Shown: positions 4,640-34,130 of the stretch, piece after piece
Numbering within the stretch: position 1 is the stretch's first letter
How the letters are laid out: the number at the start of each line of letters is the position of its first letter
NCBI GenBank assembly: GCA_902798685.1
Contig: CADBXO010000018.1
Span: 1-47,909 of the forward strand
Reading direction: 5' to 3'
DNA: 47,909 bases
Source of the DNA: an uncultured Bacteroidales bacterium
GTDB taxonomy: Bacteria; Bacteroidota; Bacteroidia; Bacteroidales; Bacteroidaceae
The notes under the pieces: model-generated
What the model was told of the DNA's origin: nothing
Databases searched by the model: none
Seen by the model: the letters and a program-made list of their open reading frames with translations, nothing else
Translations under genes and position numbers: made by a program

Positions 4640-5614
4640 ATGAAAGGCAGGTTTCTCAAATTCCTAAAGGATTGGATGCTGGTGATTGGAATGATCTCCG
4701 GCGCAGGGGCATATCTCATCTATTCACAGATACCCTCAATCCATAGTGCAGGCCCTGTTCTGGAGGTAATCTGCCGCCGGACACAGCCCATACTGCTTTT
4801 CCTGATGCTGTTTATCAGTTTCTGCCGTATAGAGCCCCGTCAGCTCAAACTCAAACGCTGGCATTTCCGTAACCTGGCATTACAGGTATCCATATTCCTG
4901 GTTCTCTGCTTCGCGGTAATCTGGGCCCTTCACAGCGACACGGCCGCTGCCGCATGGATACTGCGTCACCGCGTATTCTTTGAGACCGGCATGCTCTGCA
5001 TGATCTGCCCCACAGCCACGGCATGCGCAGTAGTGACCGGCAAACTGGGAGGTGATATGGCGCAGGTTGTCATGTACACCATCATCATCAATCTGGCAGT
5101 TTCTATTGCCGTACCGCTTACGGTCCCCCTGCTCTACCCGCAGGCCGGAATAACCTTCATAGCCGCATTCAGCCGAATCCTGGCCAAGGTGTTCCCGCTT
5201 CTGATACTCCCCTGCCTTACCGCATGGACCGTACGCTGGATAATGCCCAGGTTCCACCATTGGGTTGCCTCCAAGATCAACCTGAGTTTCTACCTGTGGA
5301 GCGTAGCACTCACACTGGCCATCCTGATGAGCACCCGTGCCATCATTCACAGCCGCTGCAACATACTCACCCTGATAGGCATAGCGCTTGTCTCACTGCT
5401 CTGCTGCATATTCCAGTTCGCAGTAGGACGCCGGACCGGACGCAGGGACGGCAGCCGCATCGAGGCCAGCCAGGCATTCGGACAGAAGAACACCGTATTC
5501 GGCATCTGGATGGGCTACACCTTCTGGAACCCTCTGGTATCGGTAGCAGGCGGCTTCTACACCATCTGGCACAACATCCACAACACCCGCCAGCTCTACA
5601 AACACGCAAAATGA
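4640..5614 (+). CDS. Bile acid:sodium symporter (SBF/BASS) family protein
   Basis: A 324-residue integral membrane protein with about nine hydrophobic segments. It contains the core GMLCMICPTATACAVVTGKLGGD, typical of the BASS/SBF fold, where the crossover helices bind sodium and substrate. A later segment, ASQAFGQKNTVFGIWMGYTFWNP, matches the second conserved SBF region. Family members carry bile acids, pantoate, pyruvate or other organic anions with sodium; nothing here identifies the substrate. It is monocistronic, divergent from the beta-helix lipoprotein. Its stop codon TGA lies inside the palindromic element at 5611-5645. Confidence 0.82.
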   Translation: MKGRFLKFLKDWMLVIGMISGAGAYLIYSQIPSIHSAGPVLEVICRRTQPILLFLMLFISFCRIEPRQLKLKRWHFRNLALQVSIFLVLCFAVIWALHSDTAAAAWILRHRVFFETGMLCMICPTATACAVVTGKLGGDMAQVVMYTIIINLAVSIAVPLTVPLLYPQAGITFIAAFSRILAKVFPLLILPCLTAWTVRWIMPRFHHWVASKINLSFYLWSVALTLAILMSTRAIIHSRCNILTLIGIALVSLLCCIFQFAVGRRTGRRDGSRIEASQAFGQKNTVFGIWMGYTFWNPLVSVAGGFYTIWHNIHNTRQLYKHAK

Positions 5615-5645
5615 TACAAAAGGGGTCAGGCCCCAATTGTATCAT
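5611..5645. repeat. Palindromic element overlapping a stop codon (type A)
   Basis: A 35-base hairpin. ATGATACAA pairs with TTGTATCAT, then comes a 2x2 A/A internal loop, then GGGG-TCAGG-CCCC. The symporter gene's TGA stop is bases 2-4 of the element. A near-identical element occurs at 33123-33157, also overlapping the stop of its upstream gene. It may also serve as a weak terminator, since T-rich sequence follows. Confidence 0.75.
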
Positions 5646-5651
5646 TTTTCC

Positions 5652-5659
5652 TATCTTTG
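5652..5659 (+). promoter_or_regulatory. -7 promoter box of tilS
   Basis: TATCTTTG lies only 4 bases before the GTG at 5664. Transcription would begin at or next to the start codon, so the mRNA is probably leaderless. This decides the start. Confidence 0.7.
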
Positions 5660-5663
5660 CGGT

Positions 5664-7007
5664 GTGGGACAGGTTTTCGTAAACAGAATCAGCGAGTTCA
5701 TCAGCAGCAACCGTCTGCTTGGTGACGGGGCGCACGTTATTGTGGGCCTTAGCGGAGGTGCCGACAGCACCGCCCTGCTCATGGTATTGCTCCGTCTGGG
5801 CTACAAGTGTACAGCCGTCCACTGCAACTTCCACCTGCGCGGCGCCGAGAGTGACCGTGACCAGCAGTTCGTAACCGACCTGTGCCAAAAGCTGGGAGTA
5901 GAACTGAAAGTCTGCAGTTACGACACCCAGTCATACGCCAAACAGAAAGGAATCTCAATCGAGATGGCCGCCCGTGAACTGCGTTACACAGATTTCGAGC
6001 GAATCATGAATGAGGCCGGGGCCGATGCCATCTGCATAGCCCACCACCGTGACGACTCAGTCGAGACCGTACTGCTCAACCTCATCCGAGGCACCGGAAT
6101 CAAAGGCCTCACCGGCATCAAGCCCCGCAACGGAAACATCATCCGCCCGCTCCTGTGCGTATCGCGCCAGGATATTGAGGATTGGCTTAAGGAGATCGGC
6201 CAGCCCTACATCACTGACAGCACTAACCTGGAGACCGATTACACCCGCAACAAGATCCGTCTGCAGCTCTTGCCCATGATGCGCGCCATCAACCCCGACG
6301 CCGACAACGCCATCGCCACGACAGCCGCCCACCTGCAGGAGTCTTACGCCATCTACCGCGACGCCATTGACAAGGCATCCGCCACAATTATAAAAGGGGC
6401 CGATGAAGGATTCACAATCAACATCCCCCAGCTTGTCAAGCTGCCGTCAGCCAGCGCTTTCCTGTTTGAGGTACTCTCACCCCTGGGATTCAACAGCGCC
6501 CAGATTCAGGACGTGGAGGCATCGGCCCAGGCACAGCCGGGAGTGAAATTCTGCTCAGCCACCCACGAGCTCATAAAAGGGCGTGATGAGTTTTACGTAC
6601 ATGAACTCTCTGCAGACTCATTTGAATCAATTGAAATAAAAATCGAACCCGGAAAGTCAGTCACCCTGCCCGACGGCCGCACGCTCACCATCAGCACCGC
6701 TCCGGCAGGAACTCCCATATCCAAAGATTCTGAAGTTGCCACATTTGACATGTCACTGCTCTCAGGAGGTTCCCTTACAATTCGCCCCTGGACAGCCGGC
6801 GATTCATTCATCCCGTTCGGCATGAATGGCCGCAAACTGGTAAGTGATTTCCTTACCGACATCAAGATCAGCCCCGCCGAACGCAAACGCCAGCTTGTAG
6901 TATCCTTTGACGAGGATATCATCTGGCTGCTCGGCCACCGCGCAAGCAATCTATATCGCGTGACAAAACAGACCGGCAAACAATTAATACTAACTATTTC
7001 TGACTAA
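5664..7007 (+). CDS. tilS: tRNA(Ile)-lysidine synthase TilS
   Basis: TilS converts C34 of the AUA-reading tRNA-Ile to lysidine, using ATP and lysine, which changes its amino-acid and codon identity; it is normally essential. The PP-loop motif GLSGGADSTALL lies near residue 30, followed by HCNFHLRGAESDRD, AHHRDDSVETVLLNLIRGTG and DSTNLETDYTRNKIR, all diagnostic. The C-terminal region (RPWTAGDSFIPFGMNGRKLVSDFLTD) is the TilS C-terminal substrate-binding domain. The frame is open further upstream, but those codons fall in the hairpin and promoter. GTG at 5664 (about 447 residues) is therefore preferred. Confidence 0.94.
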   Translation: MGQVFVNRISEFISSNRLLGDGAHVIVGLSGGADSTALLMVLLRLGYKCTAVHCNFHLRGAESDRDQQFVTDLCQKLGVELKVCSYDTQSYAKQKGISIEMAARELRYTDFERIMNEAGADAICIAHHRDDSVETVLLNLIRGTGIKGLTGIKPRNGNIIRPLLCVSRQDIEDWLKEIGQPYITDSTNLETDYTRNKIRLQLLPMMRAINPDADNAIATTAAHLQESYAIYRDAIDKASATIIKGADEGFTINIPQLVKLPSASAFLFEVLSPLGFNSAQIQDVEASAQAQPGVKFCSATHELIKGRDEFYVHELSADSFESIEIKIEPGKSVTLPDGRTLTISTAPAGTPISKDSEVATFDMSLLSGGSLTIRPWTAGDSFIPFGMNGRKLVSDFLTDIKISPAERKRQLVVSFDEDIIWLLGHRASNLYRVTKQTGKQLILTISD

Positions 7008-7013
7008 TTTTCG

Positions 7014-7021
7014 TATCTTTG
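7014..7021 (+). promoter_or_regulatory. -7 promoter box of the LytTR regulator
   Basis: TATCTTTG ends 7 bases before the ATG at 7029, implying a leader of only a few bases. It overlaps the end of the tilS region. Confidence 0.65.
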
Positions 7022-7028
7022 CCAGCCT

Positions 7029-7895
7029 ATGACAAAGAACAGCGAATATACGGTTCCCAAACAGGTGTTGCAGAGGAAATTCCTTCTGCGTTCAGTTCTG
7101 TTTGTATCCCTTTTCTCCATGCTGTTCATGTCTCTCTACCAGCCATCCTTCGGCTTCTCCACCACATGGTTCGGATTCCATTCATGGAAACAGACAGGTG
7201 TCACCATGTTCTTCTACGCGGTGGCAATATCCACGCTGATAATAAGCAAGCTGCTGCTGTTCAACTACAGCAGGGGACATAGCGTAACCGGCAGGAGAAT
7301 GATAGTCTGGCATATCGTTGAATTCCTGGCTATCGCCACCGAGTATTACATCTTCTCCGTTTCATTCAAACTTGGATCGGTTGAGATACCTGAGCTTCTT
7401 TTCAGGATACCGCTTTGCGTCGCACTTATCCTGGCAATTCCCTATTCGATCATTTGGTTTTACGCGCAATATAAAGCCAACAAAGAGGAGCTGGAACTTT
7501 TCAAGATAACACACAAGCGTGAGATAATCGAGTCCGATCACCGACTCATCCAGTTCCGTGACAGTCAGGGAAAGCACAAGATGTCACTGAGCGAGGACTC
7601 CATTTTCTACATAGAGTCACAGGACAACTATGTACAGATCTTTTACGATCTGGAAGGCAAGCTTTCTAGCTATCTGCTCAGATGCAGCACCCAGAAAATC
7701 GAGGAGGATCTGGCTGGCACTTCAATAGTACGCTGCCGCCGCTCTTTCCTGGTGAATACGGAAAAAATTGTACGTTGGGGAAAAGAAAGAGGCCATTTCA
7801 CCGTAACTTTGGATCATCCGTCGGGAAAAACCATCACAGTAACCCCGGCGTATTACCGCACAATCCTGACTCAGCTGGACAGACGCTCGCTCTGA
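7029..7895 (+). CDS. Membrane-anchored LytTR-type transcription regulator
   Basis: A 288-residue protein. Residues about 20-150 hold four hydrophobic segments (for example RSVLFVSLFSMLFMSLY and LCVALILAIPYSIIWFYA). A charged linker (YKANKEELELFKITHKREI) follows. The C-terminal 100 residues form a LytTR DNA-binding domain, with SEDSIFYIESQDNYVQIFY and a C-terminal IVRCRRSFLVNTEKIVRWGKE block. LytTR domains bind promoter direct repeats and are usually fused to a receiver domain. Here the receiver is replaced by a membrane domain, so the signal may come from the envelope. No histidine kinase neighbour is present. Its target is unknown. Confidence 0.85.
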   Translation: MTKNSEYTVPKQVLQRKFLLRSVLFVSLFSMLFMSLYQPSFGFSTTWFGFHSWKQTGVTMFFYAVAISTLIISKLLLFNYSRGHSVTGRRMIVWHIVEFLAIATEYYIFSVSFKLGSVEIPELLFRIPLCVALILAIPYSIIWFYAQYKANKEELELFKITHKREIIESDHRLIQFRDSQGKHKMSLSEDSIFYIESQDNYVQIFYDLEGKLSSYLLRCSTQKIEEDLAGTSIVRCRRSFLVNTEKIVRWGKERGHFTVTLDHPSGKTITVTPAYYRTILTQLDRRSL

Positions 7896-7907
7896 TTAAA
7901 GGGGGGC

Positions 7908-9200
7908 TTATTTCCCTGAATTATCCGATGAATCCTTGAAAAATGCTGCAAAAAGCAGCGCAACCACCGCCATATAACCGGCAAATACGAGCCATGCGGA
8001 GCTCCAGTCCGCTGAAGCGGCCTTGAACACGAACCTGTCCATTACAGCACCCGCTCCAATCATTCCTACGGTAGCACCCACTCCGTTAGACATCATCATA
8101 AAGAGTCCCTGTGCGCTGGCGCGGATACCCGCCTCCACATTCTTTTCTACATAAAGGGATCCGGCAATATTGAAGAAATCAAAAGCTATTCCGTAGAGTA
8201 TGCAGCTCAGTATGAGCAACAGAACGCCCGGCATATCGGGAGTACCTATTCCAAAAAGTCCGAACCTGAGAACCCACGCGGTCATGGACATAAGCATCAC
8301 CTTTTTAATACCGAACCTTCTCATGCAGAACGGAACGAGCAGGAAACAGAGAGTCTCCGATATCTGCGAAAGTGAAAGAAGTGCGTTGGAATTCTTTACC
8401 GCGAAAGTATCGGCCAGCGCCGGATTTGCCGAGAATGAATTAAGGAATGTGTTGGCATAACCGTTCGTTATCTGAAGGGCCGATCCCATCAGTATGCAGA
8501 AGATAAAGAAAACTGCCATGTGACGCAGGCGGAACAGGCTGAAGGCACGGATTCCGAATGCATCGGCCACACTTCTCTGTGCCCTCTGTCCACCGGTGGG
8601 ACACTCCGGTAATGTAAGAGAATATCCGCACAGGATAAACGAGAGAACTCCCGAAAGGATGAGCTGGGTATATGAATCCTGCATGTGCACACCTCCTACG
8701 GATATGAAGTTGACGGCAAGCATGCTGCAGATAAAGCCCACTGTTCCGAACAGTCGTATAGGAGGATAATCCTTGACGGGATCCCCACCCGCCCTGGTTA
8801 TTATGCTGTATGACACCGAGTTAGTCAGTGCCACGGTTGGCATAAAGAATACAATGCTCAGGGCGTACAGTGAATACAGAGGACCGAATGAAATATTATC
8901 GGCGCCCATGCAGTAAAGTCCGGCGGAAAGCATGAACGCGCCGGCCAGAAAATGACAGACGGAGAGCAGACGCTGACCCTGAATGAAACGGTCGGCCACG
9001 ATTCCCACAAGCGCCGGCATGAACAGTGACACCACTCCGTTTGCAGCAAAAAACCACTTGATCTGACTGCCAAGACCCGCCTGGGCAAGGTAGCGGCCTA
9101 TTGATATAAGGTAAGCGCCCCAAACGGCATATTCAAGAAACACCAAAATGACAAGTCGGAGCCTGAGTTTTCCACCGATAACAACTGATAACCTGTTCAT
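7908..9200 (-). CDS. MFS transporter, NupG-like nucleoside:proton symporter family
   Basis: A 430-residue protein with about 12 hydrophobic segments. The start (RLVILVFLEYAVWGAYLISIGRYL) and the early segment WFFAANGVVSLFMPALVGIVADRFI resemble NupG/XapB nucleoside permeases. DYPPIRLFGTVGFI and AFDFFNIAGSLYVEKNV are further conserved family-like blocks. NupG-type carriers import nucleosides with protons across the inner membrane. The gene stands alone and converges on the LytTR gene with a 12-base gap and no clear terminator. The MFS fold is certain; nucleoside specificity is inferred. Confidence 0.82.
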   Translation of the reverse strand: MNRLSVVIGGKLRLRLVILVFLEYAVWGAYLISIGRYLAQAGLGSQIKWFFAANGVVSLFMPALVGIVADRFIQGQRLLSVCHFLAGAFMLSAGLYCMGADNISFGPLYSLYALSIVFFMPTVALTNSVSYSIITRAGGDPVKDYPPIRLFGTVGFICSMLAVNFISVGGVHMQDSYTQLILSGVLSFILCGYSLTLPECPTGGQRAQRSVADAFGIRAFSLFRLRHMAVFFIFCILMGSALQITNGYANTFLNSFSANPALADTFAVKNSNALLSLSQISETLCFLLVPFCMRRFGIKKVMLMSMTAWVLRFGLFGIGTPDMPGVLLLILSCILYGIAFDFFNIAGSLYVEKNVEAGIRASAQGLFMMMSNGVGATVGMIGAGAVMDRFVFKAASADWSSAWLVFAGYMAVVALLFAAFFKDSSDNSGK

Positions 9201-9221
9201 AACTTTTTCCCTAATCGGCCG

Positions 9222-9229
9222 CTAAGGTA
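9222..9229 (-). promoter_or_regulatory. -7 box of the NupG-like gene
   Basis: Minus-strand TACCTTAG, a variant of TAnnTTTG, lies 21 bases before the ATG at 9200. Confidence 0.4.
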
Positions 9230-9252
9230 GCACTTAATCGTGAAACATGTGG

Positions 9253-9260
9253 TATCTTTG
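9253..9260 (+). promoter_or_regulatory. -7 promoter box of the DUF3575-barrel-GTPase operon
   Basis: TATCTTTG is a full match to the Bacteroidetes -7 consensus. An ATG at 9247 lies upstream of it and so cannot be the start; the ATG at 9274 is used. Confidence 0.65.
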
Positions 9261-9273
9261 TAAAAAGAGTGCA

Positions 9274-11993: not shown

Positions 11994-11998
11994 TTCCA

Positions 11999-13309: not shown

Positions 13310-14551
13310 ATGACTGAAAAAACACCGGTCCTGCTGCTCACCGGTTATCTGGGCAGCGGTAAGACAACCCTTCTGAACCGAATCCTCAGCAACAGCAAGG
13401 GTATCAAGTTTGCTGTAATAGTAAATGACATAGGCGAGGTTAACATCGATGCAAGCCTTATACAACAAGGTGGCGTGGTCGGTATGAATGATGACAGCCT
13501 GGTTGCACTACAGAACGGCTGCATATGCTGCACCCTCAAGATGGATCTTGTTGAGCAACTGCATGACATTATTGCCACTCACCGTTTTGACTATATTGTC
13601 ATTGAAGCCAGCGGTATCTGCGAGCCCGGCCCCATTGCTCAGACCATAGACTCCATCCCCCGTATGGAAGCCAAATACAACAAGGAGGGCATTCCTCAGC
13701 TGGACTGCATAGTTACAGTTGTCGATGCTCTGCGCATCCGTGACGAGTTCGGCTGCGGTGATGACCTTGTAAAGAAAAATATAGGTGAAGAGGATCTTGA
13801 GAATCTGGTTATCCAGCAGATCGAGTTCTGCAACATAGTTCTGTTGAACAAGGCATCCGAGGTAAGCGCCGAGGAGTTGCTGCGCATCCGCAAGGTGGTT
13901 CGCGCCCTGCAGCCCCGCGCCCGCATACTCGAGTGCGACTACGGTGATATTGAACTTGAGAACATTCTCAATACCGGCATGTTTGACTTTGAGCGCGTCG
14001 CCACAAGTGCTACCTGGATCCAGGAGATTGAGAAGCGCGGCGACGAACTTGAAGATGAGCATGAGCATCATCACCACCACGATGACGATGATGACGACGA
14101 TGATGATGACGAGCATGAGCATCATCACCATGACCACGAGCACCACCATCACCACCACGATCATGAGGGCGGTGAGGTCGAGGAGTATGGCATCGGCACC
14201 TATGTATATTACGCGCGTAAGCCCATGGACCTGAACCGTTTTGACTGGTTCGTATCAAAGAAGTGGCCCAAGGGCGTTATCCGCACCAAGGGTATGTGCT
14301 ACTTCACCGATGAGTTTGACATATGCTACCTCTTTGAGCAGGCCGGCAAACAGATGTCACTCAAGAACGCCGGTCAGTGGTACGCTACCATGCCCGAGAA
14401 CCAGCTGGCCAACATGCTTCGCTCCGACCCCACCCTGGCAGCCGACTGGGACGAGACCTACGGAGACCGAATGCAGAAGCTTGTCTTCATCGGCCAAAAC
14501 CTGGACAAGGCCTACATCAAAAAAGAACTGGACGCCTGTCTGGTTGACTAA
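13310..14551 (+). CDS. COG0523/CobW-family GTPase with His/Asp-rich metal-binding segment
   Basis: A 413-residue G3E GTPase. Walker A GYLGSGKTT is at 12-20, the hallmark CxCC metal site (GCICCTLK) is at 70-77, and IEASGICEPGP (98-108) is a switch/Walker B-like region. The CobW C-terminal domain is in the last 120 residues. Between them, residues 249-287 are almost only His, Asp and Glu, a chelating stretch seen in metal-handling members. COG0523 proteins are GTP-driven metallochaperones, often for zinc, sometimes cobalt, iron or nickel. It closes the operon with the DUF3575 protein and two barrels, suggesting that operon deals with metal. The metal cannot be told from sequence. A strong terminator follows. 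Confidence 0.9.
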   Translation: MTEKTPVLLLTGYLGSGKTTLLNRILSNSKGIKFAVIVNDIGEVNIDASLIQQGGVVGMNDDSLVALQNGCICCTLKMDLVEQLHDIIATHRFDYIVIEASGICEPGPIAQTIDSIPRMEAKYNKEGIPQLDCIVTVVDALRIRDEFGCGDDLVKKNIGEEDLENLVIQQIEFCNIVLLNKASEVSAEELLRIRKVVRALQPRARILECDYGDIELENILNTGMFDFERVATSATWIQEIEKRGDELEDEHEHHHHHDDDDDDDDDDEHEHHHHDHEHHHHHHDHEGGEVEEYGIGTYVYYARKPMDLNRFDWFVSKKWPKGVIRTKGMCYFTDEFDICYLFEQAGKQMSLKNAGQWYATMPENQLANMLRSDPTLAADWDETYGDRMQKLVFIGQNLDKAYIKKELDACLVD

Positions 14552-20277: not shown

Positions 20278-21129
20278 ATGTTGAGAATAGCTGTACAGTC
20301 AAAAGGTCGTTTATACGACGAGACAATGGAGTTGCTTCAGGAGTCAGGCATCAGCCTGGGAGTATCCAAGCGTACCCTTCTGGTTCAGGCCGGTAATTTC
20401 CCGGTCGAGGTTCTGTTCCTGCGTGATGATGACATACCGCAGTCAGTTGCCGGTGGTGTGGCCGATGTAGGTATCGTGGGTGAAAACGAGTTTGTTGAGC
20501 GTGCCGAGAAGGCCGATGTCATCAAGCGTCTGGGTTTCAGCCGCTGCCGCCTTTCACTTGCCATCCCCAAGGCAATTGATTACAAGGGCCTTGAGTGGTT
20601 CAACGGCAAGAAGATTGCCACCTCCTACCCCGGAATCCTCAAGACATTCCTCAAGGAGAAGGGAATCAAGGCCGAGACACATGTTATCACAGGCTCAGTT
20701 GAGATCGCTCCCGGTATAGGTCTAGCCGATGCCATATTCGACATTGTAAGTTCAGGCTCGACACTGGTAAGCAACAACCTTCGTGAGGTTGAGGTTGTAA
20801 TGCAGTCCGAGGCCCTCCTGATAGGTAATCCCAAGATGAGTGCCGAGAAGAAGGCCATCCTTGAGGAACTCCTGTTCCGCTTTGATGCAGTAAAGGCTGC
20901 CCAGGGCAAGAAATACATCATGATGAACGTGCCCGATGACCGCATGAGCGAGGTTCTGGCTGAGCTCCCCGGCATCAAGAGCCCCACAGTAATGCCTCTT
21001 GCAACCAAGGGCTGGAGCTCAGTACACACTGTTCTTGATGAGAAGCGTTTCTGGGAAATCATCGGCAAGCTCAAGAACGCCGGCGCCGAGGGTATCCTGG
21101 TTCTCCCCATTGAGAAGATGATTCTCTAA
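20278..21129 (+). CDS. hisG: ATP phosphoribosyltransferase, long form (HisG)
   Basis: 283 residues from the ATG at 20278; the upstream in-frame region lies inside the terminator. HisG joins ATP and PRPP in the first step of histidine synthesis. Blocks LRIAVQSKGRLYDET, FLRDDDIPQSVAGGVADVGIVGENE and ATSYPGILKTFL are typical, and IVSSGSTLVSNNL contains the PRPP-binding loop. The extra C-terminal domain (KYIMMNVPDDRMSEV to the end, with SPTVMPLATKGWSSVHTV) is the ACT-like regulatory domain of the long form, which is inhibited by histidine and needs no HisZ. It is thus controlled by both attenuation and feedback. Confidence 0.97.
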   Translation: MLRIAVQSKGRLYDETMELLQESGISLGVSKRTLLVQAGNFPVEVLFLRDDDIPQSVAGGVADVGIVGENEFVERAEKADVIKRLGFSRCRLSLAIPKAIDYKGLEWFNGKKIATSYPGILKTFLKEKGIKAETHVITGSVEIAPGIGLADAIFDIVSSGSTLVSNNLREVEVVMQSEALLIGNPKMSAEKKAILEELLFRFDAVKAAQGKKYIMMNVPDDRMSEVLAELPGIKSPTVMPLATKGWSSVHTVLDEKRFWEIIGKLKNAGAEGILVLPIEKMIL

Positions 21130-21162
21130 TTGAGAATTGAAAATTGAAAATTGAAAATTGAA
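21128..21162 (+). repeat. Five tandem AATTGAR heptads filling the hisG-hisD gap
   Basis: AATTGAG once, then AATTGAA four times, beginning inside the hisG stop codon and ending exactly at the hisD ATG. No Shine-Dalgarno sequence is present. The A-rich repeat itself would form the translation initiation region. Confidence 0.85.
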
Positions 21163-26588: not shown

Positions 26589-26612
26589 GTGTTTTTTCAG
26601 AGAAGTATGGAG

Positions 26613-26630
26613 GTGACAATGGGGACGGTT
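26613..26630. repeat. Solo half of the type B palindromic element
   Basis: GTGACAATGGGGACGGTT is identical to the first 18 bases of the arm at 34013. Here the last bases overlap the TAA stop of the lipoprotein gene ending at 26629. Confidence 0.7.
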
Positions 26631-27150
26631 AGTACCAACCTAGCGTAACGTGGTCATAATTGTTGCTGTCATAGAGACTGTACAGATTATCTTCTGTTAT
26701 TGTTACTTCGGTCCAGGCCCAGGGAATCATACCGTCTGTCAGATAGAAGTCTATGTGTACTTTACCGTTATAGTTGATTATTCCCGGATCGACGGTGAAG
26801 ATATGGGCTGTCAGGTTGTCCGCGATACGGTATCCGTCAGTCGTGACGGTCAAAACGCTGTCAGTCATGACAATCGTAGACTTTATATTGAGCGAATCTC
26901 CACAGGAAACGCCGGTCTCGAATTCTTCAATCGCAATTGTATCATTGATGGTTGTTACACCTTCTCTATACGTTGGTGAACTGTATTTGTCCTCGTAATA
27001 TGAGAATAAAGAACCGACATATCTGTATGCCCAAAGACTTGACATTCCTTTCAATGACTCATCACGATCCCAATCAATACCCTTGCATGATATGAATACA
27101 AAGGATATTGTAGCTATAAAGCCTATTAAAGCAAATATTTTCTTTTTCAT
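26629..27150 (-). CDS. Small lipoprotein, second copy of a barrel/lipoprotein pair
   Basis: 173 residues from the ATG at 27150, chosen because it begins an SPII signal, MKKKIFALIGFIATISFVFISC (Cys at 22). The lipoprotein at 27835 shares its layout. Common features are an early KGMSSLWAYRYVGSL-like block (KGLSEKWSDKYVGEA there), DSVLTVTTDGYRIADNLTAHIFTVDPGIIN near the middle (DSIVVTTDGYIYADKFWAHLFTKDSGIVN there), VHIDFYLTDGMIPWAWTEV, and a C-terminal GWY. No known family was recognised. It probably sits on the outer membrane next to the barrel encoded 8 bases upstream. Function unknown. Confidence 0.72.
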   Translation of the reverse strand: MKKKIFALIGFIATISFVFISCKGIDWDRDESLKGMSSLWAYRYVGSLFSYYEDKYSSPTYREGVTTINDTIAIEEFETGVSCGDSLNIKSTIVMTDSVLTVTTDGYRIADNLTAHIFTVDPGIINYNGKVHIDFYLTDGMIPWAWTEVTITEDNLYSLYDSNNYDHVTLGWY

Positions 27151-27158
27151 ACCAATTA

Positions 27159-27833
27159 TCAGAATGTATATCCCAAACCTAACCTCACACCCGGAATCAG
27201 AACCAATCCGCACAGAGAGTATTCGGATCCTTCTCCCAACTCTGCCATGTAACAGAACCCGTTAGGAGATTGGAATCTCAAACCAAGGAACGTAACAGTG
27301 GCAGTAAGTACTTTTCTAGAATTAAAGTATTCGTTGTACTTCCAATAAAGTGAATTGTCGTCAATATGCCCTCCAACCAAAAACTGTGCATACATCATAA
27401 AGCGTTCTTTTGTCACTAAATGATATCGGGCGCCAACCAGAATATCCAGTTTGTGGGCATTTTCATTACACAGGCTTTTGTTTGTCAGATAGTCAATTCT
27501 TTCAAAACCGACGGTATGGAGTCCGAAATATGCCACAGCCGAGAGCCTTTTTGTAAAACCGTGATCAGGCAACTTATATGCGGCCTGAATAGAAAGACCG
27601 GGATAATAGTTGGACTTGTAGGCATGACTTTCCATGTTAGACAATGAGTGATATTCATACTCATGGGGATAATAGAATACCTCGCCAAATTCGGGCTCTC
27701 CATACTTCTCCCACGTATGAAAACCGGGAGTGGAGATTCCTGCGCTTATCTCAAACCTTTGCTGCGCGTTGATCAATGAAGGAATTGACGCAACAAACAA
27801 AAATGCTATTATTGTTCTGTGTAGTTTATTCAT
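27159..27833 (-). CDS. Predicted outer-membrane barrel, second copy of the pair
   Basis: About 224 residues from the ATG at 27833, which begins an SPI signal ending SLINAQ. The mature part starts QRFEISAGISTPGFHTW and ends IPGVRLGLGYTF, with a C-terminal Phe as in outer-membrane barrels. Alternating strands and aromatic girdles fit a small 8-10 strand barrel. It is a paralogue of the gene at 28371 (FEINAGISTAGN, YPSVSVEMAYRLSDDGKLSRLSAVG there; YPGLSIQAAYKLPDHGFTKRLSAVA here). It starts 1 base after the upstream lipoprotein's stop. No ligand can be suggested. Confidence 0.72.
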   Translation of the reverse strand: MNKLHRTIIAFLFVASIPSLINAQQRFEISAGISTPGFHTWEKYGEPEFGEVFYYPHEYEYHSLSNMESHAYKSNYYPGLSIQAAYKLPDHGFTKRLSAVAYFGLHTVGFERIDYLTNKSLCNENAHKLDILVGARYHLVTKERFMMYAQFLVGGHIDDNSLYWKYNEYFNSRKVLTATVTFLGLRFQSPNGFCYMAELGEGSEYSLCGLVLIPGVRLGLGYTF

Positions 27834-27834
27834 A

Positions 27835-28368
27835 TCAATACCAGCCTGTTTCAGTTTCATCTTTCTTAAAAGAATCATCATAATAGTAGGAGATAGCGGC
27901 ATGGTGGTATCTTATTTCGGACCATGCCCAAGGAGTAGTCTTGCCGGTTTCGTAGAAATCCACATGGAATACGCCCTCACCGTTGACTATTCCCGAATCT
28001 TTGGTAAACAGGTGCGCCCAGAACTTGTCGGCGTAAATGTAACCATCGGTGGTAACAACTATAGAGTCTTTTATCTGACGTAATGAGGATGTTACATTTA
28101 CCGAATCGCCGCTTTGGCTGTAACGGTAAACAATGTCCATGGATAATGTATCCTTGAGGACCGATGTGATAACACGCTCATTGTAAACGTACTTCACTGT
28201 ATAAGAGCTGTCAATTGCAAGGTTTAAGGCCTCGCCAACATATTTGTCTGACCATTTCTCTGACAGGCCCTTGATATCCTCGGCCGGTTCAAAAGTCCGG
28301 GTAATGCAACTTGTCATAAGGACTGTTGCAAGTAGTGCAAACTGTATGTATGATCTAACCTTTTTCAT
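27835..28368 (-). CDS. Small lipoprotein, first copy of a barrel/lipoprotein pair
   Basis: 177 residues, starting MKKVRSYIQFALLATVLMTSC with the lipid Cys at 21. Clear paralogue of the lipoprotein at 26629 (see shared TTDGY, GIVN and HVDFYxTG--PWAW blocks and the final GWY). It follows the barrel gene at 28371 by 2 bases and precedes the second barrel by 1 base, so all four genes are one transcription unit. Family not recognised. The conserved TTDGYxxADxxxAHxFTxDxGI core might define a new small domain. Confidence 0.72.
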   Translation of the reverse strand: MKKVRSYIQFALLATVLMTSCITRTFEPAEDIKGLSEKWSDKYVGEALNLAIDSSYTVKYVYNERVITSVLKDTLSMDIVYRYSQSGDSVNVTSSLRQIKDSIVVTTDGYIYADKFWAHLFTKDSGIVNGEGVFHVDFYETGKTTPWAWSEIRYHHAAISYYYDDSFKKDETETGWY

Positions 28369-28370
28369 AA

Positions 28371-29048: not shown

Positions 29049-29065
29049 ATAAATCTCATTTTTGA

Positions 29066-29073
29066 CAAATGTA
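29066..29073 (-). promoter_or_regulatory. -7 promoter box of the barrel/lipoprotein operon
   Basis: Minus-strand TACATTTG, 17 bases before the ATG at 29048. Confidence 0.6.
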
Positions 29074-29144
29074 TGCAAATTAAGCACAAAAAGGTCGGCT
29101 CTTTCTGTGCTTTTTTGTGCTTTTTTCCCAAAAACAGTCCTATT

Positions 29145-29288
29145 TTGCCAAAGTGTCCCACACTCACCCTAACGAGAATACGTTCTCTCGCGGGTTGGCG
29201 TGGGACACAGGCTCTAGATGAGGGGGTGTAACACAACGAACCCCGCTACGAGTGTTGTGAGCGGGGTTGTTGTGGGACACTTTGGCAA
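29145..29288. repeat. Composite palindromic element with 18-base terminal inverted repeats
   Basis: TTGCCAAAGTGTCCCACA (29145-29162) is a perfect inverted repeat of 29271-29288. A third GTGGGACAC at 29200-29208 lets the left half form its own hairpin, with CGAGAA/TTCTC inside. The right half is another hairpin (CACAAC and AACCCCGCT at 29232-29247 with AGCGGGGTT and GTTGTG at 29260-29274). No coding frame is present. It fits a small non-autonomous mobile or REP-like element, and may also terminate the leftward pepD transcript. Confidence 0.7.
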
Positions 29289-29310
29289 GAAAGCTCAATG
29301 AGCCGCGCAA

Positions 29311-30756
29311 TCAGGGAATGTTGCGCAGTATAGCCAGCAGATGGTCAAACACCATAGGAACGGTGGCAAGTTCCAGACGCTCGGATGGTGAGTGTACACC
29401 ACGCAGGGTCGGGCCGATGGAGATCATATCCAGGTCGGGATATGAGGTCAGGAAGAGGCCGCACTCCAGGCCGGCGTGGATAGCCTTGACCTTGGGATCG
29501 CGTCCGAACAGCTCCTTATAGGTGCGGACCGATATATCCAGCAGTTCAGATTTGGGATTGGGAGCCCAGCCGGGATAGCCGTCGTTACGCTCCACCTTGG
29601 CACCGGCCAGACGGAAGCAGGCAGCAAGAGTCTCCTGCACGGCGTACTTGCCTGATTCAACTGAACTGCGCTGGCTTGCCAGCATGGTAACCTTACCCTC
29701 CTCGGTGCGGATGCGTGCCAGATTTGAAGATGTCTCTACCAGTCCCGGAACATCCATGCTCATAGCGTAAACGCCATTGAATACGGCAAATACGGAACGT
29801 ATGATATTACGTGCCACAGCAGTCTCAATGCAGGTTTGGGCAGGGTCGGTACTCTCCATGAAGAACTTGGCCTCGGTCTCGGTAACATGATATTCATCCT
29901 GTATTTCCGATGCAAACACGTTGAAATCAACGCGTATCTTCTCGCGGTCAGCAAACGGAACTGCAATCACAGCCTGGGCATCACGCGGAATGGCATTGTG
30001 AAGATTACCTCCGCTCAAAGAAACCAAACGAAGGTCATACTTCTCAAGAGCGGTATTGAGGAAACGCGCCAGTATCTTGTTGGCATTGGCAAAGCCCTTC
30101 TGAATGTCATCGCCGGAGTGACCGCCGTGGAACTTGTCCACGCCCACACGCAGGAAGAAATAGCCTGCAGGAACAGCCTCAGGCTTGAAATCGAACTCGA
30201 CGCTGGTGTTGATTCCGCCGGCACAGCCTATGAATATCTCGCCCTCATCCTCCGAGTCAAGGTTGATGAGCATCTTGCCGTTCATCATGCCGGCCTTGAG
30301 GTTCTCGGCACCGGTCAGACCGGTCTCCTCAGATACTGTAAAGAGGCACTCCACGGGTCCGTGCTCAATCTCCTTGCTGTCCAGAACAGCCAGGGCCATG
30401 GCAATGCCCATGCCGTCATCGGCCCCCAAAGTGGTGCCGCGTGCCTTGAGCCATCCGTCTTCGACGTATGTCTCGATGGGCTGGGTCATGAAATCGTGGT
30501 CCAGGGTGGCATCCTTCTCGCATACCATGTCCTGATGAGCCTGCAGAATCACTGTCTGGTGGCCCTCAAATCCGGGGCTGGCGGGTTTGGAAATCAGCAC
30601 GTTACCAACCTCATCCTTCTTGGCGGCAAGCCCGCGTGCTGCGGCAAAATTCATCAGGTACTCTCCCATCTTCTCCTCTCTGCCTGACGGACGCGGAATC
30701 CTGCAGATCTCCAGGAATATGTCCATCACTCTCTTGGACCAGTCTATCTTTTCCAT
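29311..30756 (-). CDS. pepD: Aminoacyl-histidine dipeptidase (M20 family, PepD)
   Basis: 481 residues from the ATG at 30756 (MEKIDWSKRVMDIFLEICRIPRPSG). PepD is a zinc dipeptidase that cleaves Xaa-His peptides such as carnosine. The metal and catalytic residues appear in AHQDMVCEKD, GTTLGADDGMGIAMALAVLD, FTVSEETGLTGAENL, INLDSEDEGEIFIGCAGG and the final HAGLECGLF. The lid domain lies between, with HGGHSGDDI. No signal peptide, so cytoplasmic. A TATTTTTG box lies about 49 bases upstream. It could supply histidine from peptides, complementing the his operon 5 kb away. Confidence 0.93.
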   Translation of the reverse strand: MEKIDWSKRVMDIFLEICRIPRPSGREEKMGEYLMNFAAARGLAAKKDEVGNVLISKPASPGFEGHQTVILQAHQDMVCEKDATLDHDFMTQPIETYVEDGWLKARGTTLGADDGMGIAMALAVLDSKEIEHGPVECLFTVSEETGLTGAENLKAGMMNGKMLINLDSEDEGEIFIGCAGGINTSVEFDFKPEAVPAGYFFLRVGVDKFHGGHSGDDIQKGFANANKILARFLNTALEKYDLRLVSLSGGNLHNAIPRDAQAVIAVPFADREKIRVDFNVFASEIQDEYHVTETEAKFFMESTDPAQTCIETAVARNIIRSVFAVFNGVYAMSMDVPGLVETSSNLARIRTEEGKVTMLASQRSSVESGKYAVQETLAACFRLAGAKVERNDGYPGWAPNPKSELLDISVRTYKELFGRDPKVKAIHAGLECGLFLTSYPDLDMISIGPTLRGVHSPSERLELATVPMVFDHLLAILRNIP

Positions 30757-30804
30757 ATATTTTAATAAATTATAATAATACCTTAACAACTTGAAAATGC
30801 AATC

Positions 30805-30812
30805 CAAAAATA
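30805..30812 (-). promoter_or_regulatory. -7 promoter box of pepD
   Basis: Minus-strand TATTTTTG; divergent from the TAACTTCG box at 30846-30853. Confidence 0.55.
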
Positions 30813-30845
30813 CACTATTCTTGGCATTAATTCAACTAAAAAACA

Positions 30846-30853
30846 TAACTTCG
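30846..30853 (+). promoter_or_regulatory. -7 box of the small membrane protein/OmpH-like unit
   Basis: TAACTTCG, a variant of TAnnTTTG, ends 8 bases before the ATG at 30862. Confidence 0.45.
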
Positions 30854-30861
30854 CGCCGCAT

Positions 30862-31074
30862 ATGTGGAAAACGTTTCTTACAGTTGTTCTTTTCCTTCTT
30901 GCCGCAGTTGCTTTACTGTCAGTAAGCATTCTGATCAAGAAGAACGGCAAATTCCCCAACATCCACGTTGGAAAGAATCCTGCAATGAGAAAGAGGCACA
31001 TAGGATGCGTTGAATCACAGGACAAAGAGGCTCAGAAGGACAATCCCATGGCCGTAAGTGAAAAAAGTAAATAA
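30862..31074 (+). CDS. Small single-span membrane protein
   Basis: 70 residues: one hydrophobic helix (residues 4-25, FLTVVLFLLAAVALLSVSIL), then a conserved-looking polar tail with NGKFPNIHVGKNPAMRKRHIGCVESQDKEAQ. A promoter directly upstream and the OmpH-like gene 14 bases downstream support a real gene. Similar short proteins occur in Bacteroides genomes, as far as I recall. Function unknown; the single Cys in IGCVESQD is a candidate functional residue. Confidence 0.7.
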   Translation: MWKTFLTVVLFLLAAVALLSVSILIKKNGKFPNIHVGKNPAMRKRHIGCVESQDKEAQKDNPMAVSEKSK

Positions 31075-31088
31075 TTGAATTTAGCTAT

Positions 31089-31667
31089 ATGAACTTCAAA
31101 TCAGTTTCATCATTCGTACTGTCATCAGTATTGGTTCTCGGTTTCACCCAGTGCTCACAGCAGGCAGCCGCTCCCCAGCAGCAGGCTCCCATCGCCGTTT
31201 CAGGCCTTAAGATTGCCTACATTGACGTAGACTCACTCCTGGCCAACTACACTTTCTATCAGGATCTCGCAGAGGAGATGACCCGCAAGGAAGAGAACTA
31301 CCGCCTGGCTCTGACCGAGGAGGCAAACAAGTGGCAGAAGGACGTTGAGGATCATCAGAAGAAGATTGTCAACGGCGTTTACTCATCAAACGAGCGCGCT
31401 CAGTCTGAGGAGAACAGACTCGCCAAGAGACAGCAGGCTCTCCAGGAGAAGAGTGACAAGTACACTCAGGAGCTCCTTGCCGAGAGAGACGCCAACTCAC
31501 AGAAGATCAGCGAGACCGTTGACAACTTTGTAAGGGAATACAACAAGACTCACGGCTACAACATGATCATCAGCAAGGCCAGTCTGCTTTATGCCGATGA
31601 GGGCCTGAACATCACCGCTGAGATTCTGGACGGTCTGAACGCCGCTTACAACCAACCCAACAAGTAA
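31089..31667 (+). CDS. OmpH/Skp-family lipoprotein
   Basis: 192 residues. SPII signal MNFKSVSSFVLSSVLVLGFTQC (Cys at 22), Ala/Gln linker, then KIAYIDVDSLLANYTFYQDLAEEM, the OmpH start. A long charged coiled coil (about 60-150) with many Glu/Lys/Gln follows. The C-terminus is FVREYNKTHGYNMIISKASLLYADEGLNIT, the strand-forming end of Skp-like subunits. Skp is a trimeric periplasmic holdase for outer-membrane proteins; a lipidated version would be membrane-tethered. Followed by a terminator. Confidence 0.9.
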   Translation: MNFKSVSSFVLSSVLVLGFTQCSQQAAAPQQQAPIAVSGLKIAYIDVDSLLANYTFYQDLAEEMTRKEENYRLALTEEANKWQKDVEDHQKKIVNGVYSSNERAQSEENRLAKRQQALQEKSDKYTQELLAERDANSQKISETVDNFVREYNKTHGYNMIISKASLLYADEGLNITAEILDGLNAAYNQPNK

Positions 31668-31686
31668 TTATTTACTTAACCGATAT

Positions 31687-31719
31687 AAAAGGTCATTCTC
31701 AATGAGGATGACCTTTTTT
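31687..31719 (+). terminator. Terminator after the OmpH-like gene
   Basis: AAAAGGTCAT-T-CTC-AAT-GAG-GATGACC then six T, 20 bases after the stop. Confidence 0.88.
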
Positions 31720-31733
31720 GTTGCAAAATTTCA

Positions 31734-31741
31734 TACCTTTG
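31734..31741 (+). promoter_or_regulatory. -7 promoter box of the second CE15-like gene
   Basis: TACCTTTG, 23 bases before the ATG at 31765. Confidence 0.65.
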
Positions 31742-31764
31742 ACATAACGTAAAACTTATAACTT

Positions 31765-33126
31765 ATGAGAACCCTGAAGTATATCATCGGCACTGCCGTA
31801 CTGGCATGCATTCCTTTTTCAGTTAGTGCACAATTCATGTTCGGAGGCGGCGGGAACCGCGCAGCCCAGGACAGTCTAAGAAAGATAGCGGCAGCCGATT
31901 ATGCCGATATGCTGGCCAAGGTTGGCGTAGGCCAGCCCCGTGAAGGCCGTCAGCCCAACAGCCAGGATGAGAGCAAGCATCCCAACTATGACGAGCTCAT
32001 AGCCAACCCCTACCCCTTCTATCCCGATCCTCTGGTGACAGAGAGCGGCAAGAAGGTCAAGAACGCCAAGATGTGGAACAAGGTTCGCCGTCCCGAGATA
32101 GTTAAGCTTTTTGAGGACAATGTTTACGGCCGAATCCCGGAGAATGTACCCGGCGTAAAATGGGAGGTTACCAGCGAGGAGAAGAAGGAATTCGCCGGCA
32201 AACCCGTAGTGGTACGCATGCTCAAAGGTGTAGTCGACAACTCCAGCTACCCCGCAATAACCGTCGAGATCCAGGCCAACGTAGTCTATCCCGAAGGTAA
32301 GGAGAACCTGCCCGTAATCATAGAGTTCGGATTCGGAGGCGGTGATCCCACACGCGTACGCGCCGGCAGCACCTCATGGCAGCAGATGGTCATTGAGCGC
32401 GGTTGGGCCGCAGCCACCATCAACCCCTCTTCAATCCAAGCCGATGCAGGCTCAGGCCTTACCAACGGCATTATAGGACTCTGCAACAAGGGTGAGTTCC
32501 GCCAGCCCACAGACTGGGGTTCACTCCGTGCATGGGGCTGGGGCCTTTCACGTCTGATTGACTACTTTGAGACCGATAAGACATTCGATGCCACCAAGTG
32601 CGCCATCGAGGGCGTATCACGCTACGGCAAGGCATCACTCGTAGCCATGGCTTTTGAGGAGCGCATTGCAGCCGGATTCATCGCCTCATCAGGCAAGGCC
32701 GGCGCAGCAGGATGGCGCCGTGACTGCGGTGAGAGCATCGGCAACATAGTATCAAACGAGGAGTACCACTGGGTATGCGGAAACCTGATCAAATACGGCA
32801 CAGACCCCTACACCGAGAATGACCTGCCCGTTGACCAGCACGAGCTCATCGCCCTGTGCGCCCCGCGCGCATGCTTCATCTCCACCGGCAGCTGGAACGG
32901 TGACAAGTGGCAGGATGTTGTAGGTTCGTTCATATCGGCCTCAAAGGCATCACCCGTATATGAGCTGTTCGGTTACAAGGGCGTGGGCACAGACCTCTTC
33001 CCCGGCATGGATAACGGTCTTATGGAGGGCCGATTAACATACCGTCAGCACCACGGAGGCCACGAAGCCGGACCCAACTGGCCCTACTTCCTTGACTTCT
33101 TTGACCGCGAAGTTGTTTCAAAATGA
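31765..33126 (+). CDS. CE15-like glucuronoyl esterase family protein
   Basis: 453 residues with a signal peptide ending PFSVSAQ. Alpha/beta hydrolase with nucleophile motif GVSRYGKASLVAMAF (GxSRxGK form of CE15), a conserved EEYHWVCGN segment, LPVDQHELIALCAPRACF, and HHGGHEAGPNWPYF, where the catalytic His is expected. CE15 enzymes break glucuronate-lignin or related esters in plant cell wall material. No SusC/D or xylanase gene is near, so it is not in an obvious polysaccharide locus. It is related to the broken gene at 824 and shows what that gene lost. Its stop TGA lies inside the element at 33123-33157. Confidence 0.82.
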   Translation: MRTLKYIIGTAVLACIPFSVSAQFMFGGGGNRAAQDSLRKIAAADYADMLAKVGVGQPREGRQPNSQDESKHPNYDELIANPYPFYPDPLVTESGKKVKNAKMWNKVRRPEIVKLFEDNVYGRIPENVPGVKWEVTSEEKKEFAGKPVVVRMLKGVVDNSSYPAITVEIQANVVYPEGKENLPVIIEFGFGGGDPTRVRAGSTSWQQMVIERGWAAATINPSSIQADAGSGLTNGIIGLCNKGEFRQPTDWGSLRAWGWGLSRLIDYFETDKTFDATKCAIEGVSRYGKASLVAMAFEERIAAGFIASSGKAGAAGWRRDCGESIGNIVSNEEYHWVCGNLIKYGTDPYTENDLPVDQHELIALCAPRACFISTGSWNGDKWQDVVGSFISASKASPVYELFGYKGVGTDLFPGMDNGLMEGRLTYRQHHGGHEAGPNWPYFLDFFDREVVSK

Positions 33127-33157
33127 TACAAAAGGGGACAGGCCCCTTTTGTACTAT
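33123..33157. repeat. Palindromic element overlapping a stop codon (type A, second copy)
   Basis: ATGATACAAAAGGGG pairs with CCCCTTTTGTACTAT around an ACAGG loop. It is the same length (35 bases) and has the same start as the element at 5611. Here the central A/A internal loop is replaced by full A/T pairing, while one outer pair is a mismatch. The esterase TGA is bases 2-4 of the element. Confidence 0.75.
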
Positions 33158-33227
33158 TTTTCAATTTTGATTTAACAATTGGAAGATTCCTGCGTCTTAT
33201 TGATAGAAACACTTAAAGAACGGAACG

Positions 33228-34016
33228 ATGAAAACTAGAATGATGATGATTGGCATTGCAGTTGCAGCGCTTCTGCTTTGCACCGAGAGTGTTCAGGCAC
33301 AGTCCAGAGTAGTCCGCAGGGAACGCAACCCGCAGCGCGTAGACGACCGTCGCATTGACCGTCCCGATCCACGCCGCACACGCGACGTAGTTGTCCCCGT
33401 CCCCGAGCGTCCACGTATAAAAGTCGTTGACAATGAGGTGATACGTTCATTCGACCGCGAGAGATTTGATTCAAACCGTCTCAAGATGGCCGATATGATA
33501 TTCAGCACCGACGGTTACATGACCACAGCACAGATTACACGCGTAGCCGAGACATTCGACTATGACAGCAACCGCATAAAGTTCCTCAAGAACGCATATC
33601 GCAACTGTGTTGATCCGTACAACTACTACATGGTTCTGGGTACGCTTGACTACAGCAGCAGCCGTGAGAAGATCATAAACTACGTACTTGAGGACAAGGA
33701 GAACAGACTCCTCCGCACCGATCTGGTACGCAAGGTCAGCTCATCGGACATGACAGCCATTGTCAAGGCACTCAAGAACGAGAGTTTTGATTCAACACGC
33801 GCAAAACTTGCCAGAATGATTGTATGCGGCAGCCTGCTCACCTCACGCCAGATAGCAGACATGGCCAAGACATTCACCTATGACAGCAAGCGCTTTGATT
33901 TCCTGAATTACGCATATGACTTCTGCGCCGATCCTCAGAACTACGTAGTTGCAGCCAATACACTCGAGTTCAGCACCAACCGCAACGATCTGATGCGTAA
34001 CATCACTCGCAGGTGA
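33228..34016 (+). CDS. DUF4476 repeat protein, secreted
   Basis: 262 residues. Signal peptide ending SVQAQ, an Arg/Asp/Pro-rich basic stretch (residues 25-65, RRERNPQRVDDRRIDRPDPRR), then two tandem DUF4476 repeats of about 90 residues. Repeat 1 starts FDSNRLKMADMIFSTDGYMTT and repeat 2 FDSTRAKLARMIVCGSLLTS; both continue with F-YDS-R--FL--AY--C-DP-NY. The repeat is helical and of unknown function; it is common in Bacteroidetes. The last codon is followed by TGA inside the type B element. No clear promoter was seen beyond AT-rich sequence. Confidence 0.85.
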   Translation: MKTRMMMIGIAVAALLLCTESVQAQSRVVRRERNPQRVDDRRIDRPDPRRTRDVVVPVPERPRIKVVDNEVIRSFDRERFDSNRLKMADMIFSTDGYMTTAQITRVAETFDYDSNRIKFLKNAYRNCVDPYNYYMVLGTLDYSSSREKIINYVLEDKENRLLRTDLVRKVSSSDMTAIVKALKNESFDSTRAKLARMIVCGSLLTSRQIADMAKTFTYDSKRFDFLNYAYDFCADPQNYVVAANTLEFSTNRNDLMRNITRR

Positions 34017-34130
34017 CAATGGGGACGGTTCTCTTTGGCGTAAAGCCTAGATAACAAGAAACCCTCTAACACGGAAATGTGCTAGAGGGTTTCTTATTGT
34101 AGGGCCAAAGAGAACCGTCCCCAATGTCAC
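34013..34130. repeat. Type B palindromic element between two convergent genes
   Basis: 27-base arms (34013-34039 and 34104-34130) starting GTGACA and containing GGGGACGGTTCTCTTTGG are inverted repeats with one mismatch. Each arm's TGA is the stop codon of the gene on its side (34014-34016 on plus, 34129-34127 on minus). Between them, a 13 bp perfect hairpin (AAGAAACCCTCTA 34056-34068 with TAGAGGGTTTCTT 34083-34095) works as a two-way terminator. Confidence 0.85.
34056..34095. terminator. Bidirectional hairpin inside the type B element
   Basis: A 13 bp perfect stem with a 14-base loop, flanked on the right by TATTGT. It would stop transcription from the DUF4476 gene and from the TlpA-like gene. 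Confidence 0.7.

Follow-up and report, generated by a model that had tools for sequence, protein, structure and literature searches.

Stop codons supplied by the termini of repetitive extragenic palindromes are already in print for the GTAG-type REPs (Di Nocera, De Gregorio and Rocco 2013, PMC3733652); in the part of that article drawn on here they are reported for GTAG REPs and not for TIRs. Another described group, TnpAREP subclass 2.6 or RAYT group 5, comes mostly from Bacteroidetes, and the portion of PMC6006769 used here attributes to it "atypical secondary structures", which occur next to the gene as well as at other genomic places and lack GT[AG]G, and lists the motif FQ for subclass 2.1, in which no REP was found. 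During translation the ribosome may hide a hairpin located directly behind a stop codon, according to the excerpt of PMC4824070 that bears on this point. The palindromes described here come from a Bacteroidales genome, the host being a gut bacterium with kinship to rumen species.

The window, i.e. the whole stretch of 47,909 nt analyzed, contains two type A palindromes, at 5607..5650 (CAAAATGATACAAAAGGGGTCAGGCCCCAATTGTATCATTTTTC) and 33119..33162, neither of them assigned to a strand. As a preliminary description had claimed, their 35-base hairpins at 5611 and 33123 both open with ATGATACAAAAGGGG and bases 2-4 (TGA) are the stop of the upstream gene. TGA 5612-5614 ends ORF 4640-5614, an SBF-like transporter (Pfam match below cut-off), and TGA 33124-33126 ends the glucuronyl-esterase-like ORF 31765-33126, both genes having been called with a codon-usage script. 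A type B dyad lies at 34013..34130 (no strand assigned) and consists of two inverted arms round an inner hairpin. One arm reads TGACAATGGGGACGGTTCTCTTTGGC and the other is its inverse, the two differing at one of the first 17 bases. Both open with GTGACA and, again as described before, the convergent ORFs 33228-34016 and 34127-35242 each end at one of the outer TGAs. The inner hairpin, AAGAAACCCTCTAACACGG...GAGGGTTTCTT (34056..34095, no strand), was absent from the list of the terminator consensus scanner, and we call it terminator-like from its fold and T-rich flank. Convergent genes often have hairpins. All three elements folded much better than shuffled sequences, the two type A hairpins with z of -5.8 and -6.8 and the dyad with -13.5 and -17.4 on its two strands. 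The 13-base type A core alone was unremarkable in the window (two or more matches, each with no more than 2 mismatches, in 34 of 100 shuffles), and the TGACAATGGGGACGGTT arm was beyond chance, its 3 matches being reached in none of 100 shuffles. Terminator-like sites in the scanned stretch numbered 3 (shuffle mean 1.2), and the Rfam search of the window gave nothing at gathering scores.

Two further copies are less regular. The solo type B arm at 26614..26630 (+ strand), upstream of an FBPase_2 gene, had been described as overlapping a TAA stop. Its contact with a TTA, which reads TAA on the minus strand, is limited to the inner end of the arm, and the ORF involved (26629-27213) scores poorly in the codon-usage gene caller, so that there is no convincing gene stop there and the geometry differs from that of the intact elements. 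The decayed type A half noticed before at 36321 corresponds to an intergenic copy at 36304..36338 (+ strand), 71% identical to the reference copy at 5608. The coincidence of every intact palindrome with a stop codon stands for the three intact elements of the window but not genome-wide, where no more than 29 of the 62 type A copies in intergenic DNA have a gene stop exactly in the foot.

This fraction is nevertheless far above the 1.36 copies expected when each was slid within its own gap, and among type A sides facing a gene 3' end 44 of 76 show an overlap with the foot's first 7 nt; the copies gather at gene 3' ends with a precision well beyond chance. The type A core has 68 exact matches in the genome against none for a reversed-pattern control. 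When one mismatch is tolerated the counts are 82 (forward) and 75 (reverse), the control giving 10 and 8, and the one-mismatch cores analyzed further are those in retrieved DNA. Poor arms led to the exclusion of 7 of the 73 core matches in retrieved DNA, three of them exact. Type A feet, mostly TGA or TAG within AAAATRRTAC, carry these triplets on both strands, and the triplet is present in 38 of 51 feet facing gene starts. AAAAT(GA/AG) occurs also at feet that serve as no stop, indicating that the triplet was not simply taken from the target. It is intrinsic to the type A element, and the earlier suggestion that the elements evolve from stop codons finds no support. Furthermore, in 32 cases the reading frame of the gene meets the element in the stop frame, and in 5 it reads through (four copies inside called ORFs and a transposase gene on contig 2 running into its own palindrome). 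Random frames predict 1:2, and the preference of 32/37 has a binomial p of 3e-11.

That REP-like palindromes are tied to Y1 (RAYT) transposases had been stated in the preliminary description, and RAYT genes flanked by the same palindromes were indeed found. The genome has two, on contigs 2 and 8, the former flanked by type A and the latter by type B palindromes, so that each is accompanied by cognate palindromes that are multi-copy elsewhere. Both are above the cut-off for PF01797 and carry the NHVH and YIHQNP motifs of a Y1 (IS200-like) domain with HUH and catalytic Tyr. With NF047646 (REP_Tyr_transpos) they scored 63.3 and 55.6 bits, below the equivalog cut-off of 80 bits, and the contig-8 protein matched TnpAREP (PDB 4ER8) weakly (E 0.0018). 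Their lengths are 284 and 270 aa and the W motif reads FQ (HLFQDRF, HVFQGRF). Across the genus, a broader pattern for HUH plus Tyr was found in 26 of 31 ORFs picked at RAYT loci, the other 5 being a cut ORF, a neighbouring ORF or another Y1 type. The 37 genomes contain up to 185 exact type A cores each, with a median of 44 in those with a Y1 gene versus 1.5 in those without. Five genomes without a detected Y1 gene (G002, G007, G012, G029 and G034) have 39-83 cores. A hairpin detector run on the RAYT loci located a foot on the stop codon for 10 of 74 RAYT genes versus 21 of 106 other genes of the same loci, figures that do not favour the explanation preferred below and are to be read knowing that the other genes include same-genus element carriers and that several palindromes plain by eye (e.g. 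L358) were scored as "no hairpin".

Type B feet mostly read TGACA, and of the 36 type B arms that face the 3' end of a gene, 17 have a stop exactly in the foot. The retrieved part of genome G000 has 20 dyads, of which 13 are 118 bp long with a related inner hairpin, one of them (C35) diverged as judged by eye; the terminator-like hairpin lies some 40 nt from the stop. It is hardly credible that all these are ordinary intrinsic terminators or chance palindromes, immobile in either case. The T-rich terminator-like tail of the type A element at 33127 and the frequency of hairpins between convergent genes would suit this reading, but RAYT genes are flanked by the same palindrome families. Chance palindromes are ruled out by the 68 exact cores without a single match of the reversed pattern, and plain native terminators by dyad arms and inner sequences that recur at unrelated loci.

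Orthologues from the same genus, mostly from closer relatives, stop for the most part at the same residue with or without the element, in a comparison of the kind proposed in the preliminary description. C-terminal ends such as FC[IV]GK in MnmE, FDFDE in S4, RKK in Lgt and KGK in MutS recur in both situations, so that a gene is able to host the element with its protein unaltered; in MnmE the element is present in G000 and in 0 of 13 others. End offsets were computed ignoring alignment gaps, and the genes counted had been selected since G000 has an element at their stop. In this set stops within a foot (n=61) were TGA 52, TAG 7 and TAA 2, or TGA 47, TAG 7 and TAA 2 (n=56) when the G000 loci L098, L157 and L187 are left out. 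The stops without element (n=164) included 85 TAA and 51 TGA, the two classes having been separated by an automatic rule that leaves some other-family or decayed elements (e.g. L158, L168, L172 and L175) in the second. Insertion into the last codons, with an in-frame foot stop creating a tolerated shorter C-terminus, would account for the AMP-ligase family, in which element-bearing orthologues end early and the old stop is kept downstream, and for the last residue lost in G026 MutS and G009 DPP4 (Lgt of G026 has gained one). Most orthologues of MnmE, MutS, Lgt, S4 and p1 keep their terminal motifs, however, and we consider this explanation quite improbable. Random-frame truncation as the general case is ruled out by the exact stop coincidence and the stop-frame preference.

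In a second genome, G030, the figures speak against strict targeting of stops. Of the 46 type B arms that face a gene 3' end no more than 7 match the stop exactly, and 0 of 30 dyads supply both stops, but 42 of the 46 arms lay between -3 and +18 nt of the stop, most of them 2-18 nt behind it. By eye, the gap between p2 and p3 has its own hairpin in G009, G002, G006, G032 and G035 and exactly a dyad, from stop to stop, in G000 and G033, in which the native junction is entirely absent. The precise match at both stops together with the complete loss of the native junction is hard to explain by simple insertion. Selection together with genome compaction, and not targeting, could have produced such arrangements if elements were inserted anywhere behind genes and the spare 3' DNA was deleted until the palindrome reached or entered the stop codon, its TGA or TAG then serving as stop. 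The missing junction, the scatter of the G030 arms and the native hairpins of G006 and G032, which overlap the p2 stop too, all agree with it. However, deletions are expected to end at random residues and frames, and both the strong stop-frame preference and the mostly identical protein ends with and without element make this explanation unlikely.

The explanation that we favour, and regard as rather probable, is that REP-like palindromes are mobilised in trans by Y1 HUH transposases of the RAYT/TIRYT type and insert at or just behind stops, the stop being rebuilt by the element. Insertion would often take place right after the T that opens every stop codon, and the first bases of the element (GA.., AG.. 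or an A-run) would remake a stop at the same codon, e.g. TAA to TGA or TAG. An empty site in G007, GGCAAATGATCAGATAA, can be compared with its filled version in G029, GGCAAATGATACC...GTACTGTTTTCAAGATAA. Insertions that rebuild the stop would be harmless and persist, those elsewhere in genes being purged. Paired type B arms would enclose a bidirectional terminator-like hairpin and could replace the whole 3' junction of convergent genes. Established elements may turn over by replacement with other subfamilies; at sites shared by G003 and G028 the arms were swapped between subfamilies in 3 of 9. Against this explanation stand the offsets and dyads of G030, the AMP-ligase shortening and the one-residue changes, the triplets at feet that serve as no stop, the TGA stops of element-free orthologues, the five core-rich genomes with no detected Y1 gene and the loss of the junction in G000 and G033. 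A bolder version, which we put forward as possible but doubtful, is that of a transposon family built for invisibility at gene ends, with feet that remake a stop when insertion follows the opening T of any stop codon, whichever the strand (T+GA, T+AG, T+AA-run), dyads serving as bidirectional terminators that are mobile and take over from the native ones where genes converge, and copies replaced where they stand by whichever subfamily prevails locally in each species. If insertion rebuilds stops, this would be a simple route for a mobile element to spare its host, and the shift from TAA to TGA or TAG at occupied genes would be explained. The dyads suggest that a terminator of transcription may itself be a mobile unit. 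This genus, which offers 37 genomes and the same stop codons in both occupied and unoccupied form, permits direct tests of RAYT site choice and of REP crowding at gene 3' ends.

Like the GTAG-tagged REPs, as presented in the part of PMC3733652 used here, the elements occur as monomers, dimers and clusters and are associated with RAYT genes. They differ in their feet, TGA or TAG within AAAATRRTAC, TGACA and related sequences and not GTAG (GT[AG]G is lacking at the 5' foot), in their host, a Bacteroidales genus, and in that orthologues with and without element have been compared here. TIRtrons (TIRYT) share with them, in the same text, a Y1 transposase between inverted repeats with the common GGGGWSAS; the type A cores GGGGTCAG and GGGGACAG beside the contig-2 RAYT fit this sequence, whereas type B GGGGACGG beside the contig-8 RAYT misfits it at one position. 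With TnpAREP subclass 2.6, as far as the excerpt of PMC6006769 describes it, the NH[LIV]H and YIH[QN]NP motifs, the non-GTAG structures and the host order agree, but both proteins have FQ where the table has WQ and are longer than the 179 given in what appears to be its length column. The type B dyad is, like a BIME or REPIN, a repeated unit of two inverted REP arms; what sets it apart is that related terminator-like hairpins occupy the spacer in the 118-bp dyads and that its outer feet often double as stop codons. We have filed the elements under a known kind, the RAYT/TIR palindromes, the new part being the TGA/TAG feet, including those of dyads that wrap a terminator-like hairpin.

Both type A palindromes (short and REP-like) found in the window, of 44 nt each at 5607-5650 and 33119-33162, carry an outer TGA that is the stop of the adjacent ORF, and at the type B dyad at 34013-34130, two inverted arms of a second family around a terminator-like hairpin, both neighbouring ORFs end in the outer TGAs. 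The preliminary description had reported these stops, and sequence and ORFs confirm them; all three elements fold far better than shuffles. The type A half that it had called decayed near 36321 was found as a copy at 36304 and is decayed indeed. The claim for the solo type B arm at 26614, said to overlap a TAA stop, needs correction, its geometry differing from that of the intact elements of the window. Other repeats were also seen. An inverted repeat with GCCAAAGTGTCCCACA at 29140-29293 is probably another repeat family, and a similar stretch lies downstream of DPP4-like genes in G004, G034, G006 and G025. Repeats of the AATTGAAAATTGA type, common to G003, G028 and G029, are located 3' of genes at about 21125-21157 and in the fetched loci L112-L114. 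In the intergenic region 46627-46712 a 20-nt unit occurs three times in direct orientation at 33-nt spacing, and 14041-14160, inside ORF 13310-14551, is repetitive and apparently rich in His and Asp codons.

The source genome (G000, a 2.26 Mb draft whose contig 18 is the window) contains two Y1_Tnp genes, one in contig 8 flanked on both sides by 118-bp type B dyads and one in contig 2 flanked on both sides by type A copies, so that the association of these palindromes with a REP-type transposase (RAYT) gene, anticipated earlier, was found twice. Around the contig 2 gene 13 type A cores are crowded (112.5-126.3 kb); two palindromes of this region, at 112963 and 113161, fall within a predicted ORF, which continues through both. 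Both proteins have the NHVH and YIHQNP motifs and match Pfam Y1_Tnp above the cut-off and NF047646 (REP_Tyr_transpos) below it, the contig 8 protein also weakly matching PDB 4ER8, and their nearest relatives are from Bacteroidales MAGs, mostly ruminant-derived. Among the 37 genomes of the genus, 30 have exact type A cores, 10 the type B 18-mer and 23 a Y1 match, some apparently of other Y1 types (e.g. G019:C66). The median number of type A cores was 44 in the 23 genomes with a Y1 match versus 1.5 in the 14 without (one-sided Mann-Whitney p 0.01). By eye, the stop of the RAYT itself was in the palindrome foot, the outer end, which mostly carries TGA or TAG, at 11 of 26 loci with an HUH+Tyr ORF (L135, L136, L139, L140, L141, L145, L146, L151, L153, L154 and L155); at L001, L002 and L132 the transposase ORF continues into the palindrome and its stop is not in the foot. 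At C7:53-55 kb, C10:30458 and C22:30132 of the source genome, type B arms enclose another inner sequence, GACTTCGTCGAGCTAAACCTTC or a close form of it, and these copies may represent a chimeric subfamily.

The fetched DNA of the source genome gave 73 type A core hits for analysis, including all 68 exact cores; 66 of the 73 had good arms. Seventy-six sides face the 3' end of a gene: at 32 of them the stop was exactly the foot triplet (24 TGA, 8 TAG), and at another 12 it overlapped the first bases of the foot. At least one exact match was found for 29 of 62 intergenic copies, against 1.36 expected when each copy was slid within its own intergenic gap. The TGA/TAG triplet is intrinsic to type A, since 38 of the 51 feet directed towards gene starts have it as well. 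Among 60 type B arms examined, 36 face a 3' end, with the TGA exactly the stop in 17 and four abutting a stop, and three of 20 dyads supplied or abutted both convergent stops. For a second genome, G030, 60 type B arms in 20 fetched regions were sampled (the genome has 92 exact 18-mers): 46 face a 3' end, seven exactly at the stop and 42 from -3 to +18 nt, and none of 30 dyads supplied both stops. Therefore, nearness to the gene end is common to both genomes, and exact stop supply differs between genomes and subfamilies, which limits the stop claim.

Fourteen genes with a stop inside an element in the source genome were compared with orthologues from the genus, for which 37 genomes were searched, itself included. 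The 237 distinct orthologous stops were in a foot in 61 cases, had an element nearby in 12 and none by the automatic rule in 164. TAA was used by two of the stops in feet (52 TGA, 7 TAG) versus 85 of those without element (51 TGA, 28 TAG), with a Fisher p of 3.6e-13 that is optimistic, as related species were treated as independent. Feet per gene went from MnmE (0/13), Zip (1/9) and DPP4 (1/9) to AMP-ligase (11/16) and Lgt (13/18). Protein ends are mostly unchanged among orthologues (MnmE FC[IV]GK, S4 FDFDE, Lgt RKK, MutS KGK, p1 EREVV.K), and the end offset of the 61 foot cases was 0 in 40 and +1 in 11, nine of the latter belonging to p1-p3, where the query is one residue longer. As exceptions, AMP-ligase is a few codons shorter with the old stop still present downstream, the last residue was lost in G026 MutS and G009 DPP4, and one was gained in G026 Lgt. 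A single stop can have different subfamilies by species, such as TGATACCA, TAGTACCA with an ACGG core, TAGTACAA and TGACACAA among those at Lgt.

The gap between the convergent genes p2 and p3 (ORFs 33228-34016 and 34127-35242) was inspected in ten genomes. One dyad fills it exactly, stop to stop, in the source genome and G033. The dyad of the source genome is a repeated unit, because both G009 and G030 have copies with 90-92% identity elsewhere. In the other eight genomes the gap is element-free. Of these, G034 has TGA at both genes and 12 bp between them, G030 has TAG and TGA with 150 bp, and in G009, G002, G006, G032, G035 and G019 both genes end in TAA, 14-65 bp apart, with a hairpin by eye in five of the six. 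At the p2 stop of G006 (L101) and G032 (L104) native terminator-like hairpins overlap the stop codon too, with the 5' arm in the coding end. The inner hairpin of the source genome dyad starts about 40 nt 3' of the stop, a distance that may be relevant, since an E. coli study reports almost complete repression of terminators that follow a gene by several base pairs (PMC4824070).

Ten G003 sites were also compared with G028, G029 and G007 (s7 was not orthologous); the p1 gene is 93.7-96.3% identical pairwise among G003, G028 and G029. Site s8 reads GGCAAATGATCAGATAA in G007 versus GGCAAATGATACC...GGTACTGTTTTCAAGATAA in G029, a pair that fits insertion right at the stop codon. ACAA and ACCA subfamily arms were swapped at three of nine sites shared by G003 and G028 (s4, s5 and s8), with flanks agreeing on at least one side, and a second copy made the difference at two (s2 and s10). 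The swaps suggest replacement in place, and paired mutation may be an alternative source of them.

In the open-access literature we found no orthologue-level account of stop replacement, no TGA-footed elements in Bacteroidales and no terminator-carrying dyads. The passages of published work that bear on these palindromes describe atypical structures without GT[AG]G for subclass 2.6 in Bacteroidetes (PMC6006769), a GTAG foot that matters for cleavage to a degree varying among systems (PMC8266576), E. coli REPs at 15 nt or less from a stop in 446 of 4,072 cases (PMC12306157) and REPs immediately behind or very near the RAYT stop codon (PMC2817692). Landing at stops is the mechanism that we infer, and it is well supported that the palindromes are a real variant of this already known kind of element.
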